From assembly GCA_025455395.1 (NCBI GenBank), contig JALOMO010000015.1, positions 1-38,884 on the forward strand: a stretch of 38,884 nt of DNA, read 5' to 3'. Of the stretch, positions 1,815 to 29,076 are shown one piece after another. Below the pieces are notes generated by a model. The model did no database searches and was not told where the DNA came from. It saw nothing but the letters and a program-made list of their open reading frames with translations. The DNA comes from Bacteroidales bacterium (GTDB lineage: Bacteria > Bacteroidota > Bacteroidia > Bacteroidales > VadinHA17). The translations under genes and the position numbers were made by a program. The first letter of the stretch is position 1. Every line of letters starts with the position of its first letter.

Positions 1815-1871
1815 ATGGCAATTAATAAATTACATCATCATCATTCTCATACTTGCTCTCAGGCGAGATGA
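1815..1871 (+). CDS. hisL: his operon leader peptide MAINKLHHHHSHTCSQAR
   Basis: 18-codon ORF (atg gca att aat aaa tta cat cat cat cat tct cat act tgc tct cag gcg aga tga) with four consecutive His codons plus one more. It lies between a promoter and a terminator upstream of hisG. Confidence 0.88.
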   Translation: MAINKLHHHHSHTCSQAR

Positions 1872-8926: not shown

Positions 8927-8983
8927 ATGAAGACCTCTTTATTTTATTTTATTATTCTCCCCCTTATTATCGGCAATAGTTGA
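8927..8983 (+). CDS. ilv-leu operon leader peptide MKTSLFYFIILPLIIGNS
   Basis: 18-codon ORF with Ile x4, Leu x3, Phe x2 and Tyr x1. It lies between a promoter motif and an intrinsic terminator upstream of ilvD. Confidence 0.82.
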   Translation: MKTSLFYFIILPLIIGNS

Positions 8984-8986
8984 TGA

Positions 8987-9060
8987 TCCGGAGAGTAATT
9001 GTGTAGAATAATGAGAAACAGATACAAAAGAGCTTCCCGGAAAACCGGGAAGCTTTTTTT
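8987..9060 (+). terminator. ilv-leu attenuator: terminator AGCTTCCCGG/CCGGGAAGCT (9031-9040/9045-9054) with U tract, and antiterminator segment TCCGGAGAG (8987-8995)
   Basis: Perfect 10-bp stem, AAAA loop, then T7. TCCGGAGAG can pair with CTTCCCGGA (9033-9041) with one A-C mismatch and one G-U. Confidence 0.85.
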
Positions 9061-20445: not shown

Positions 20446-21291
20446 ATGACCGATCGTCAGATACTTGTAGCCATTCAGGGCGAAAAGGGAAGCTTTCACG
20501 ATGTAGCTGCAAAAGACTATTTCAGGAATAAAGAGATTGTTATCATACCATGCTCAACATTCGATGAAACAATTAATTCTGTTATCTCAGGCAAGGCTGA
20601 ATATGCAGTTATGGCAATTGAGAATGCCCGCGCAGGCAGCATTCTGTATAATTATAACCTTATCAGAGAGTCGGGCCTTAAAATACTTGGCGAGCTAAGA
20701 CTAAGGATCAGGCAGAATCTCATGGCACTTCCCGGAACAACAATTGGCTCATTAAATGAAATCAGATCTCATCCTATTGCCCTCGCACAGTGTATGGAAT
20801 TTCTCAACACCCTGAAAGGAATGACATTGATTGAGACCGACGACACTGCCGGTACGGCCAGGATTATAAGCGAACACCATCTTACCGGAACAGGCACAAT
20901 AGCATCAGCCAGTGCAGCAGAGATTTATGGACTTGAAATTCTTGCCGATGGGATAGAGACGTATAAAAAGAACTACACAAAATTCCATGTCATTGGCAAT
21001 GAATCTGAAATGCCCGATGAAGGAGATAAAGCATCTGTCTGCTTTGCAACCAGTCACCTGCCCGGTTCACTTGCCAGAGTTCTGCAAATACTTGCCGGCA
21101 TGGACATCAATCTTTCAAAAATACAGTCTGTTCCAAGGTTGAACGGCAACTGGGAGTACATGTTTTATCTTGATCTTGAGATGAGCAAGGCATCAAGAAT
21201 GGACACTGTTGTAAAGGCACTTGAAGAACACACGATGAACCTGGAGATACTCGGGATTTACAACAAGGACAACAATCTTTATGAATGCTAA
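20446..21291 (+). CDS. pheA: Prephenate dehydratase with C-terminal ACT domain
   Basis: VAIQGEKGSFHDVAAKDYF, YAVMAIENARAGSI, TDDTAGTARII, C-terminal ACT region PGSLARVLQILAGMDINLSKIQSVP. Confidence 0.9.
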   Translation: MTDRQILVAIQGEKGSFHDVAAKDYFRNKEIVIIPCSTFDETINSVISGKAEYAVMAIENARAGSILYNYNLIRESGLKILGELRLRIRQNLMALPGTTIGSLNEIRSHPIALAQCMEFLNTLKGMTLIETDDTAGTARIISEHHLTGTGTIASASAAEIYGLEILADGIETYKKNYTKFHVIGNESEMPDEGDKASVCFATSHLPGSLARVLQILAGMDINLSKIQSVPRLNGNWEYMFYLDLEMSKASRMDTVVKALEEHTMNLEILGIYNKDNNLYEC

Positions 21292-21316: not shown

Positions 21317-21346
21317 TATTTTTGTATCATAATTTCATTATTTTTG
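21317..21346 (+). promoter_or_regulatory. Candidate promoter region for trpB2 with two TATTTTTG -7-like motifs (21317-21324 and 21339-21346)
   Basis: Both octamers match TAnnTTTG and lie just upstream of the Trp leader ORF. Neither has a clean TTTG at ideal spacing. Confidence 0.5.
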
Positions 21347-21351
21347 CATAA

Positions 21352-21396
21352 GTGAAACCGACAACATTAAATATCTGGCGCTGGTGCAGCTCATGA
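21352..21396 (+). CDS. trpL: trp leader peptide MKPTTLNIWRWCSS (GTG start)
   Basis: 14-codon ORF gtg aaa ccg aca aca tta aat atc tgg cgc tgg tgc agc tca tga. Two closely spaced Trp codons sit immediately before mutually exclusive RNA hairpins. Confidence 0.78.
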   Translation: MKPTTLNIWRWCSS

Positions 21397-21480
21397 GATG
21401 AAGCTGTGATTGACGCCATTATATAATATCATTAGATAATTATGCAAAAAGGCACGCTGATCACAGCGTGCTTTTTGTTT
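21387..21480 (+). terminator. trp attenuator: pause hairpin (21387-21406), antiterminator GCTGTGAT (21403-21410) with ATCACAGC (21460-21467), and terminator GCACGCTG/CAGCGTGC (21452-21459/21464-21471) plus U tract
   Basis: The terminator has a perfect 8-bp stem, ATCA loop and TTTTTGTTTT. The 8-nt antiterminator pairing is perfect and extended by GCC/GGC (21415-21417/21451-21453). CAGCT..AGCTG protects the antiterminator 5' part. Confidence 0.85.
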
Positions 21481-21503
21481 TATATAACCCTAAAAAATTG
21501 AAT

Positions 21504-22868
21504 ATGGAAAAGTTTACAAAATTTCTTCTGAGTGAAAACGAGATGCCGCGCCAGTGGTATAACATTATGGCTGACATGCCAAATAAACCCCTTCCTCCAC
21601 TTCATCCGGGAACAGGCAAACCTGTCGGACCTGAAGATCTTGCAGCAGTCTTCCCGATGGAACTGATAAAGCAGGAAGTCTCAACAGAGAGATATATTGA
21701 CATTCCTGAGGAGGTATTCGATCTCTACAGAACATACAGGCCCTCACCGTTATTCAGGGCAAGGAATCTTGAAAAGGCTCTGGGAACAAAAAGCAGGATC
21801 TATTATAAGTACGAAGGAGGTAATTATTCCGGATCGCATAAAGCAAATACAGCTATACCGCAGGCCTATTATAACAAGATGGAAGGCGTTAGAAGGATAA
21901 CTACTGAAACAGGTGCCGGACAATGGGGAAGCGCCATGAGTTTTGCCTGCAATCACTTCGGACTCGAGTTACTTGTATTCATGGTAAGAGTAAGCTTTGA
22001 TCAGAAACCCGGCCGTAAACTCATGATGAATACCTACAATGCCAGGGTAGTGCCATCGCCCAGCACTATGACAGCAGCGGGAAGAAAGGTTCTGGAAGCG
22101 GATCCAGACTCTCCGGGAAGCCTCGGCATCGCTATCTCTGAGGCGATGGAGGTGGCAGTACAGGACCCGTATACCAAATATGCCCTTGGCAGCGTGCTCA
22201 ACCATGTCATACTTCACCAGACAATTATTGGTCAGGAGGCGCTTATCCAGATGGCAAAGGCAGATGACTACCCCGATGTTGTACTGGGATGCTTCGGTGG
22301 AGGATCAAATTTCTCCGGTATCGCATTCCCCTTCCTTCGTGAGAACCTGCTCAACGGTAAGAAGACAAGACTTGTTACAATTGAGCCGGCTTCATGTCCC
22401 AAGCTGACAAAAGGAAAATTCATGTATGACTTTGGCGATCAGTCAGGCATGACGCCTCTTCTTCCGATGTACTCACTGGGGCATAACTTCATCCCTGACA
22501 AGATACATGCAGGGGGTCTTCGCTATCATGGCGCCGGAGTACTTGTGAGCCAGCTGCTTAAGGATGGATTTGTAGAGGCAAAGGCAAAATTCCAGAGAGA
22601 ATGCTTCGAGGGAGGAGTGCTCTTTGCCAGGACAGAAGGCATATTGCCGGCTCCGGAATCAACATATGCAATTGCAGGGGCACTTGATGAGGCACGCAGG
22701 GCTGACATTGACGGAGTATCAAGAAGTATCCTCTTTAACCTTAGCGGACATGGACATTTTGATATCTCTGCTTACGAGAAATACTTCGAGGGAAACCTGC
22801 CCGACCATGAAGTAACAGCGGAAGAGGTAGACAGGTCTATTGCGCAGCTTAACCTTCCTGTATTCTGA
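21504..22868 (+). CDS. trpB2: Tryptophan synthase beta-like protein (TrpB2 type)
   Basis: MEKFTKFLLSENEMPRQWYNIMADMPNKPLPPLHPGTGKPV, RPSPLFRARNLEKALGTKSRIYYKYEGGNYSGSHKANTA, ETGAGQWGSAMSFA, GGGSNFSG. The long N-terminus is typical of TrpB2. The track ORF starts at an upstream GTG inside the terminator; ATG 21504 is preferred. Confidence 0.9.
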   Translation: MEKFTKFLLSENEMPRQWYNIMADMPNKPLPPLHPGTGKPVGPEDLAAVFPMELIKQEVSTERYIDIPEEVFDLYRTYRPSPLFRARNLEKALGTKSRIYYKYEGGNYSGSHKANTAIPQAYYNKMEGVRRITTETGAGQWGSAMSFACNHFGLELLVFMVRVSFDQKPGRKLMMNTYNARVVPSPSTMTAAGRKVLEADPDSPGSLGIAISEAMEVAVQDPYTKYALGSVLNHVILHQTIIGQEALIQMAKADDYPDVVLGCFGGGSNFSGIAFPFLRENLLNGKKTRLVTIEPASCPKLTKGKFMYDFGDQSGMTPLLPMYSLGHNFIPDKIHAGGLRYHGAGVLVSQLLKDGFVEAKAKFQRECFEGGVLFARTEGILPAPESTYAIAGALDEARRADIDGVSRSILFNLSGHGHFDISAYEKYFEGNLPDHEVTAEEVDRSIAQLNLPVF

Positions 22869-25800: not shown

Positions 25801-28800
25801 TTAGAAGATCAGACGAACTCCGAGCAGGCAACCCCATGTGCTTGAAGTGCTTATGCTCTTGCTGAGGGTTGTCTTAGTGGCAAAGTCAGTAAGTGATGTT
25901 GCATTGAGCCTGTAAACAGGAGCTGTGGTTGCTGTACCCCTTGTAACAACTGTAAGGGGACGAACATTGTCGTAGCTTGCCAGCGGATTATAGACCCATG
26001 TGCCCCATGCGTCGTTAATCATATTACCGACATTCAGGAAGTCAACACTGACCTGTACGGTATACTTGTGATTAGTGCCGAAGTTGGCAAAGATATCCTG
26101 GAGGATCTTTGCATCAAACCTGTGCATCCAGGGACGCACCTCACCGAATCTTTCTGCATATTCACCCTTGCGTGAATGCAGGTATTCATTGTTGTTGATA
26201 TACTCCCAGAACGCAGCCTGCTGCTGGGCAGCAGTCATTGTAACTCCGCCTGAAGTGTAATTGGCAAAGTTAATCTCGGTTGCACTTGCTGGAACATACA
26301 TCAGGTCTGATGATACACCGTCACCATTGAGGTCATTTGAATATGTATATGACCATCTGCCCTGCTGATAGCCCTGATAAACCAGGGAGAATGTGGTTGC
26401 AAAATGTTTTGCATACTCGATCCTGTAAGAAACATTACCCAGAAGCTTATGCGGTGTGGCGAAGTTTGAGTAGCTCAGCCCTGGATCATTAAGACTTCCG
26501 ATTGCAACGTTGGAAGAATATGCAGAGTAAGCTGCTGATCCCGGGTTTGCAGTAAGATCGTATGCCATTGTATAGGTATAGGCGAACATACCGGAAAATC
26601 CTTTGGAGAAATTCTTGGTCAGCTGGCCGGTAACCGAATATTGATACCCTTCGCTGGCATTGTCAAGCTCCATAGCACTCGCTATTGATGTATTAACTTT
26701 TGCAGCGTTAGTTGATGCCCAGTATTCCCTTTTGTCAGGACCTGTCATTATGCCTGTCGGGGCAGCAAGGTTTATGTTCTGCTGTACAATAGCATTGATA
26801 TCTTTTGAGAAGATTGCCTCTGCAGTGAAGACCATGCTCCATGGAAGCTCAATGTCTACACCTATGTTCGACCTCCATATCTGTGGGAACTTGAATTCCT
26901 TGCCCACCTGCACCACCGATGAGTTGTTAGGCAATGTACTCGGGCTCTGCGGGAAAAGATCAGGCCTGCTGGCTATGAATTCCTTATAGTCAGGATTGAA
27001 CTCCAGGCCGGCAAGGTTAGCATTGCCCGGTCCCCATCCGATCTCAGGTGACTGGATTGTGCCGGAGTTGGTTGGCTGATTGGTGAACCAGACAAATGGA
27101 AGCAGTCCGGTGAAAATACCGGTACCGCCTCTAATCTGCAGTGATCTGTCACCCTTAACATCCCAGTTGAAGCCAAAGCGGGGAGAAACAACAAGCTGAG
27201 TCTCAGGCCAGGTGCCTACATCCATTTTCTTGCCTTCAGCAAAAGTAAGAGCTGCTATTGCCGGGTTGGGCGTCAGATCATATAGATAGAAGGGCATCTC
27301 CAGACGTAAACCATAGGTAAGTTTTATGTTTGGCAAAGCCTGCCACTCATCCTGACCATATATTGATGCAAATCCAAAAGTTGCATAGGCCCCAGGGGCA
27401 TCCTCACCGTTATAACCATAGGTAACTCCGAATCCGGTCGGATCGGCACCGTTGATGAAATCGTCAACAGAACCATAGCGGTAATAGGTGGTACCTTCAC
27501 GAATGTATGAGTTGCGGAAGTACATATGGTCAAATGATATACCACCTGTCACAGTATGTTTATTCAGGTTTATCGTCACGTTATCGACAATGGTCAGAGT
27601 CTTGTTAGTAACGTCATTATTAAAAGTAAAGAGTTCATATCCGAATGACATATACTGGTCACCACCCTGCCATATGTCAACAAACGGGAAGAGGTCCGAG
27701 TTGCTTGTACGGGTGTCTTGTATAAAGGTGTAACTGGCAAGGAACTTGTTGGATATCTTGTTGCCAAACTTGCTGTTAAGTTCACCGGTTATCGAACGTA
27801 CAGTATTCTTAAAACCGTAGAAAGCATTTGAGAATGCCATTGACTGGCTGCTTATACGGTTTGAGTTGCGTGCGTTGTTTGGCGGACCGCTGTTGCCATT
27901 GGTCTGCTGGTCTGAGGTTCCGACAACATCATTATACCTCACGGTAAACTTGTGATTCGTGCTGATGTTCCAGTCAATACGTGCAAGGATCTTGGTATTA
28001 ACATTCTGGAAAGGATCGAAATCCTTGTACTTCCCGGGATCATAATTATATGTCTCAAGGAGATGGTCTCTTACGCGAATCATATCTGACTCGAGTGTTC
28101 TTGAGATCATGAGGTCGGCATTGGCAACTCCGTCAGTGCTTGGTCTCCATGAAACGCCCGGGACTGATTCTGTCCCGTACTCACCGCTGATGAAGAAGAA
28201 TAATTTGTCCTTGATGATCGGACCGCCGATGCGTCCGCCGTAGGTCTGTGAACTTCTCTCCCTGGCTCCTGTAACCTCGTTACCGTCAACTGTATTGCCG
28301 GTAAATGATTCCGGACGAATATATGTATAGGCTGAAGCCTTGAATGTGTTGTCGCCGCTTCTTGTCACTGCATTTATACTAGCTCCTGTAAACTGCGACA
28401 TACGTACATCATAGGGTGCAATATTTACAGAGATCTCCTCGATTGCGTCAAGAGCGATTGGTTGTGCCTCACCACCCGGCAGAGGGTTGCTGCTCAGCCC
28501 GAAGTTATTGTTGAAGGCGGCACCGTCAATTGTAATGGTGTTGAAGCGGCCGTCCCTGCCTCCGAAGGAATTGCCCTGCGCCTGAGGTGAGTACTTGGTG
28601 AAGTCAAGTATACTCCTGCTGATGGTGGGCATGTTAACGAGGTCGCGTCCGCTGACGTTGGTCATGGTGCCGGAACGCTCTGAACTCAGAATAGAATTCT
28701 TAAGGCCTGCCGTGACAACAACCTCCTGCAAGGCTGTGGTTGTCTCAGTGATCTGACCGTTCTGAACATAATTTTCTCCAAGCTTGAGGTAGATATCCGT

Positions 28801-29076
28801 ATAGGTACTCGTTGAATACCCGACAAATGAGACATCAACCTTGTACGGACCACCGACACGCATGTTCTGGATCCTGTAGTTTCCTGCATTGTCGCAAAGA
28901 GCTGCATACTGCGTTCCTGACGGAACATGCACTGCAACAACGGTAGCGCCTGCCATCGACTCTCCTTTGCTGTCAGTGATCTTGCCGCTCAGCGACGAGG
29001 TCGTCACCTGTGCCATCAGGGCCACAGACCCCAGTAACAGTGACAACAGAATAAATGTAAACTTAATTGTTCGCAT
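25801..29076 (-). CDS. TonB-dependent receptor, Oar-like, with N-terminal carboxypeptidase-regulatory-like domain
   Basis: 1091 aa, signal peptide MRTIKFTFILLSLLLGSVALMAQ, LSGKITDSKGESMAGATVVA, plug region GRDGRFNTITIDGAAFNNNFGLSS, C-terminal aromatic GVRLIF. Confidence 0.88.
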   Translation of the reverse strand: MRTIKFTFILLSLLLGSVALMAQVTTSSLSGKITDSKGESMAGATVVAVHVPSGTQYAALCDNAGNYRIQNMRVGGPYKVDVSFVGYSTSTYTDIYLKLGENYVQNGQITETTTALQEVVVTAGLKNSILSSERSGTMTNVSGRDLVNMPTISRSILDFTKYSPQAQGNSFGGRDGRFNTITIDGAAFNNNFGLSSNPLPGGEAQPIALDAIEEISVNIAPYDVRMSQFTGASINAVTRSGDNTFKASAYTYIRPESFTGNTVDGNEVTGARERSSQTYGGRIGGPIIKDKLFFFISGEYGTESVPGVSWRPSTDGVANADLMISRTLESDMIRVRDHLLETYNYDPGKYKDFDPFQNVNTKILARIDWNISTNHKFTVRYNDVVGTSDQQTNGNSGPPNNARNSNRISSQSMAFSNAFYGFKNTVRSITGELNSKFGNKISNKFLASYTFIQDTRTSNSDLFPFVDIWQGGDQYMSFGYELFTFNNDVTNKTLTIVDNVTINLNKHTVTGGISFDHMYFRNSYIREGTTYYRYGSVDDFINGADPTGFGVTYGYNGEDAPGAYATFGFASIYGQDEWQALPNIKLTYGLRLEMPFYLYDLTPNPAIAALTFAEGKKMDVGTWPETQLVVSPRFGFNWDVKGDRSLQIRGGTGIFTGLLPFVWFTNQPTNSGTIQSPEIGWGPGNANLAGLEFNPDYKEFIASRPDLFPQSPSTLPNNSSVVQVGKEFKFPQIWRSNIGVDIELPWSMVFTAEAIFSKDINAIVQQNINLAAPTGIMTGPDKREYWASTNAAKVNTSIASAMELDNASEGYQYSVTGQLTKNFSKGFSGMFAYTYTMAYDLTANPGSAAYSAYSSNVAIGSLNDPGLSYSNFATPHKLLGNVSYRIEYAKHFATTFSLVYQGYQQGRWSYTYSNDLNGDGVSSDLMYVPASATEINFANYTSGGVTMTAAQQQAAFWEYINNNEYLHSRKGEYAERFGEVRPWMHRFDAKILQDIFANFGTNHKYTVQVSVDFLNVGNMINDAWGTWVYNPLASYDNVRPLTVVTRGTATTAPVYRLNATSLTDFATKTTLSKSISTSSTWGCLLGVRLIF

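Follow-up and report, generated by a model that had tools for sequence, protein, structure and literature searches.

The trpL attenuator of E. coli combines a short leader ORF with clustered Trp codons, a protector hairpin, an exclusive antiterminator and an intrinsic terminator upstream of trpEDCBA, and its region 2 pairs with the 5′ arm of the terminator (CGGGC:GCCCG). A candidate Trp attenuator has also been predicted in C. diphtheriae, an actinobacterium, before the trpB2A operon, a biosynthetic operon in which the gene named trpB2 is paired with trpA (PMC1262725). In the alphaproteobacterium S. meliloti the trp leader trpL (peptide peTrpL) is leaderless, with RNA reported to begin at the trpL ATG, and precedes trpE(G) (PMC7298713); the ilvB leader peptide of C. 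diphtheriae is likewise leaderless. Within the Bacteroidota, leader-peptide attenuation of amino-acid operons was earlier suggested in F. psychrophilum (PMC9723704).

The leader described here shares the elements of E. coli trpL but precedes a lone trpB2, often in genomes without trpA, and the part of the terminator that its region 2 captures is the loop plus 3′ arm. We predict an almost leaderless mRNA for it, with a 5′ end deduced from a promoter box, unlike the reported end in S. meliloti. A literature search covering few subscription papers turned up no earlier account of an attenuator before trpB2 in Bacteroidota. The new elements are trpB2 as the target and its genomic context, an antiterminator built on the loop and 3′ arm, and the predicted near-leaderless start.

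A putative tryptophan attenuator upstream of a lone trpB2

The window, by which we mean the whole 38,884-nucleotide stretch analysed, comes from a Bacteroidales MAG of 3.47 Mb that is 89% complete. The trpB2 product passes the cut-offs of two NCBIfam models, PRK12391 (700 bits, cut-off 366) and TIGR01415 trpB_rel (605 bits, cut-off 518.85), and scores 131 bits, far under the cut-off, with the canonical trpB model TIGR00263. The solved chains that score best against it are 6hul_B, 4qys_B and 6hte_B, the latter two both named tryptophan synthase beta chain 2. The gene stands alone between a pheA-like prephenate dehydratase gene ending at 21291 and a convergently oriented gene for a B12-dependent ribonucleotide reductase. 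Elsewhere in the window, an ORF of 1091 amino acids (25801-29076, minus strand) had no NCBIfam match at E 0.001.

Taken together, the leader ORF, the covarying pairings, their placement and the stall-dependent folding make it very likely that trpB2 is controlled by ribosome-mediated, Trp-sensing transcription attenuation (Table 1). The 153-nt leader folds with z = -3.35, and none of 200 shuffled sequences folded as low.

Table 1. Features of the trpB2 leader and of two further leaders in the window
Feature	Position	Strand	Details and basis
Alternative TATTTTTG motif	21317-21324	+	Sequence; not conserved among orthologs
Predicted -7 promoter box TATTTTTG (TAnnTTTG)	21339-21346	+	Aligned in nearly all 68 orthologous leaders
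Predicted leader peptide ORF VKPTTLNIWRWCSS	21352-21396	+	GTG start, TGA stop; sequence; same start place in relatives
Sensor codons TGG-CGC-TGG (W-R-W)	21376-21384	+	TGG at 21376-21378 and 21382-21384
Region 1:region 2 protector hairpin (CAGCTCAT / ATGaAGCTG)	21387-21406	+	Arms 21387-21394/21398-21406, one bulged A
Region 2, antiterminator 5′ strand	21403-21417	+	GCTGTGAT 21403-21410, GCC 21415-21417; covariation
Antiterminator 3′ strand	21451-21467	+	ATCACAGC 21460-21467 (loop and 3′ arm), GGC 21451-21453; covariation
Intrinsic terminator AAAAGGCACGCTG-ATCA-CAGCGTGCTTTTT	21447-21476	+	Loop ATCA 21460-21463; covariation
trpB2 (orphan tryptophan synthase beta chain 2)	21504-22868	+	Start ATG 21504; NCBIfam
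His leader peptide MAINKLHHHHSHTCSQAR	1815-1871		Ends in stop; terminator 1902-1928; upstream of hisG
Ilv leader peptide MKTSLFYFIILPLIIGNS	8927-8983		Ends in stop; terminator GAGCTTCCCGG-AAAA-CCGGGAAGC 9031-9054; upstream of ilvD

Conservation and covariation of the leader

A TrpB2 search of genome contigs identified 80 related loci besides that of the window. At 69 of the 81 loci, window included, a short ORF lying 60-220 nt ahead of trpB2 contains a TGG-NNN-TGG motif. One of the 12 loci without a W-x-W leader (L033) is cut by a contig end; in five others (L014, L019, L034, L056 and L059), all at least 80% identical, the leader is truly absent. In L014 and L019 the leader has been lost and a terminator, degraded in L014, still lies directly before trpB2, behind the end of an aroA-like gene. 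These two losses constitute a natural experiment on the switch.

Both TGG codons are invariant in all 68 leaders of the alignment, and the codon between them varies (R/S/W/C/L/P), giving WRW, WSW, WWW, WCW, WLW and WPW leaders. Relatives mostly start the leader with ATG at the same place; a few, including the window, use GTG. Many of the aligned leaders have Ser codons after the tryptophans (AGC TCA in the window). Downstream of region 2 and ahead of the terminator, at about 21419-21426, a TTATATAA motif shows strong conservation even where the leader stops earlier, and it provides the stop codon of longer leaders.

Pairing statistics were computed on the same 68-row alignment. The terminator is paired in 92.3% of cells, with two-sided changes in nine pairs, and the antiterminator in 93.8%, with two-sided changes in six; the GCC:GGC helix, whose strands lie opposite each other in the antiterminator, is paired in 96.6%. 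Three of the two-sided antiterminator pairs have their partner in terminator-loop columns, and this supports the antiterminator because terminator function alone does not constrain the loop. The 1:2 hairpin, which acts as protector, is paired in 80.4% of cells and shows two-sided changes in six pairs. Pair counts exceeded those of shuffled alignments on the main measures, although that control ignores relatedness, which alone can inflate the excess. When partners were slid out of register, 20-60% of cells paired, as against 80-94% in the true register. Some of the most-diverged loci (L065, L066, L076 and L078) have changed arms with matching partners. The antiterminator and the terminator are mutually exclusive, and both of them and the protector hairpin covary, as expected of a ribosome-mediated Trp attenuator.

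The initial annotation had placed the ORF, the Trp codons, the hairpins and the terminator at coordinates that all match the sequence on rechecking, and the positions of GCTGTGAT and ATCACAGC are exact. It had proposed searching trpB2 orthologs for the W-x-W leader and the three pairings, and had held that unconserved Trp codons or pairing would count against attenuation. Both are conserved, at 68 of the 80 related loci and with two-sided compensatory changes in each pairing, an outcome that favours the attenuator. Its choice of trpB2 as the target also held up, the element preceding trpB2 across relatives.

Predicted promoter and start of transcription

Shine-Dalgarno initiation is largely absent from Bacteroidota. 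Of the two TATTTTTG motifs upstream of the leader, it is the second that is conserved among orthologs. This -7 box ends exactly 5 nt ahead of an in-frame start in 54 of 69 trpB2 leaders, versus mostly 16-19 nt in those Bacteroidota trpE leaders in which a box was found. Given this spacing, and because in F. psychrophilum the TAnnTTTG box spans -12 to -5 (PMC9723704), we predict that transcription of the window leader starts at about 21351, with a 5′ UTR of 1 nt, so that the mRNA would be almost leaderless. Leaderless mRNAs are a minority in the phylum, at 5.5% in F. psychrophilum, and 5′ UTRs shorter than 10 nt make up about 3.7% in B. thetaiotaomicron (PMC7366714).

Predicted folding and the signal sensed

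We modelled folding with a ribosome footprint edge assumed to be E. coli-like (P-site first base +15). With the window RNA blocked up to 21394, as by a ribosome on the second Trp codon, the antiterminator keeps a probability of about 1 while the RNA grows to 21470, and the terminator overtakes it only at 21472-21476. In free RNA, or with the ribosome on the stop codon, the terminator is predicted to have formed by 21472-21476. Across 65 orthologs, with 6 nt of the 3′ arm exposed, a stall at the second Trp codon favours the antiterminator in 97%, and the terminator stands at about 0.95 in free RNA or with the ribosome at the stop. Shuffling the spacer while keeping its dinucleotides reduces antitermination to 10%. 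At equilibrium the complete terminator (-19.2 kcal/mol) is more stable than the antiterminator (-12.8 kcal/mol), and antitermination must therefore be kinetic.

We hypothesize the following sequence of events. Transcription, beginning right at the leader start codon as the -7 box suggests, would let a ribosome load at the RNA 5′ end and trail RNA polymerase. When Trp-tRNA is scarce, the ribosome would stall on the two UGG codons and cover region 1, which would free region 2 to pair first with the base of the terminator 5′ arm (GCC:GGC) and next with the emerging terminator loop and the start of the 3′ arm (GCUGUGAU:AUCACAGC). The antiterminator may thereby keep the terminator open for as long as the polymerase needs to get past it. 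If Trp is plentiful, the ribosome would reach the stop codon, and region 2 would be masked or held in the 1:2 hairpin, as it would be if the leader were untranslated, and the terminator would form. Trp depletion would in this way turn on indole salvage through TrpB2.

Which codons could trigger this response was assessed by placing the stall at codons -5 to +10 relative to the first Trp codon. Antitermination was predicted for codons 0 to +5 only, the highest value elsewhere being 0.31 at codon -3, and the Trp codons thus lie in the one stretch where stalling is expected to cause antitermination. Because this stretch also includes Arg, Cys and Ser codons, the switch may respond to more than Trp. 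A switch that senses Ser, Arg, Cys or general translation stress through these neighbouring codons, besides or instead of Trp, is nonetheless unlikely. It would account for the predicted effect of stalls at codons +1 to +5 (R/S, W, C/R/H, S, S/L), and serine is the co-substrate of TrpB; but invariance is confined to the Trp codons, the AGC Ser codon is in any case required by the 1:2 pairing, and leaders in a second clade of trpB2 have clustered tryptophans (WWWW, WWCW, WRWWW) and lack the Ser pair.

Antiterminator topology

For each leader we compared the best spacer complementarity to the 5′ arm plus loop of the terminator with that to the loop plus 3′ arm, each against shuffled spacers. The better partner is the loop plus 3′ arm in 98% of 65 trpB2 leaders (mean z 3.5 vs -0.2) and in 91% of 22 trpE leaders. 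On a similar metric E. coli trpL gives the opposite result (5′ arm 15, z 1.8; loop plus 3′ arm 9.5, z -1.3). A few Bacteroidota leaders do use the 5′ arm plus loop (L127 and L132, and by eye L184 and L185).

The initial annotation had called the element a textbook E. coli-trp-like switch. The leader with Trp codons and the three exclusive hairpins bear this out; the antiterminator strand and the predicted near-leaderless mRNA do not, nor does the Rfam Trp_leader model RF00513, which gives the window leader 22.8 bits against a threshold of 41. The pairing that it had labelled 2:3 is really 2:4, since the partner of region 2 is made up of the terminator loop and 3′ arm, region 4 in E. coli terms. 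The logic is E. coli-like and a different strand of the terminator is captured. Rfam scans at the gathering score found no match in the window and loose E-values yielded sub-threshold hits only; neither scan of the window revealed a T-box or other Rfam riboswitch family.

Pairing of region 2 with the whole loop and part of the 3′ arm makes a loop-first pseudoknot intermediate geometrically possible, and one could envisage an antiterminator that depends on such a region 2-loop pseudoknot, or on a trans factor, and not on ribosome stalling. We consider this very unlikely: the invariant Trp codons are located where a stalled ribosome exposes region 2, and the GCC:GGC helix makes the antiterminator nested rather than pseudoknotted.

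Distribution across Bacteroidota and related leaders

A covariance model of the element matches 91 of 118 genomes of the window's family, and 88 of the 92 matches there lie 25-71 nt before trpB2. One match, between L31-like and lon-like genes in genome G004, was judged a false positive. In a sample of the phylum the model matches 18 of 399 genomes, among them the window's own; the other 17 matches precede a trpE-like gene, as read from its translation and not from a family search. The second trpB2 clade (55-59% identity) has W-rich leaders (WWWW, WWCW, WCCW and WRWWW) followed by terminators, largely different in sequence, and several of these leaders are missed by the model.

It is very unlikely that the hairpin is a mere terminator of the upstream pheA operon with an incidental leader ORF and incidental alternative pairings: a strong terminator does stand between pheA and trpB2, and L019 keeps one after losing its leader, but across genomes the terminator is fused to a W-x-W leader, region 2 covaries with its loop, and the -7 box before the leader in nearly all relatives would be needless at the end of an operon.

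The Bacteroidota trpE leaders, which include WWW leaders in Flavobacterium-like genomes and some Bacteroidales, resemble the trpB2 leaders in their clustered Trp codons, in the pairing of region 2 mostly with the loop and 3′ arm, and in a similar layout. They differ in the gene that they precede and in the wider spacing of the box, and are only distantly similar in sequence. In one case (L135, G022:C4, 580-960) trpE is preceded by two tandem Trp leaders, MHKNSNKNWWWHNDFDQTL and MSKILNIRIISGKMSAWWWQWNGT, each followed by a terminator of its own, and a TATATAA similar to the TTATATAA motif is present.

The 39-kb window may contain three attenuated amino-acid operons, His, Ilv and trpB2, as judged from their leader sequences. 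Most of the genus relatives examined also have His-rich leaders ending TCSQAR, and most have Ile/Leu-rich leaders. The -7 box of the His leader (1790-1797) is 17 nt from the start, and this leader is therefore not leaderless.

Tryptophan pathway loss and probable indole salvage

The function of orphan TrpB2 proteins has been a long-standing question. Of the 22 genus genomes, 20 have neither trpC nor trpD. The two exceptions, G098 and G112, are also the only ones in which trpA exceeds its cut-off. In the window's own genome trpA, trpC and trpD are all missing and the sole trpE-like match is weak; as this MAG is 89% complete, the case for its missing genes rests on more complete relatives. In the family, 50 of the 87 genomes with both the element and trpB2 have no trpA, and 18 of those 50 are at least 95% complete.

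In T. kodakarensis, indole is reported to be converted to Trp with a TrpB2 (cited in PMC11085991). Because most genomes of the genus have no trpC, trpD or trpA, TrpB2 most likely uses imported indole and serine to form Trp, and the switch probably governs indole salvage. A Trp-codon switch that is conserved in genomes that have lost trpC, trpD and trpA suggests that TrpB2 serves the cell as a Trp supplier, with indole taken up from its neighbours.

On balance we favour the view that Bacteroidota have an attenuator class of their own, in which the antiterminator mostly uses the loop and 3′ arm of the terminator, and that before the orphan trpB2 of Bacteroidales without a Trp pathway it serves as a near-leaderless switch for indole salvage. 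If so, it would provide regulatory evidence that orphan TrpB2 is a Trp-making enzyme in vivo. A family-wide attenuator with a different antiterminator layout would also make the coupling of ribosome and polymerase testable in Bacteroidota.
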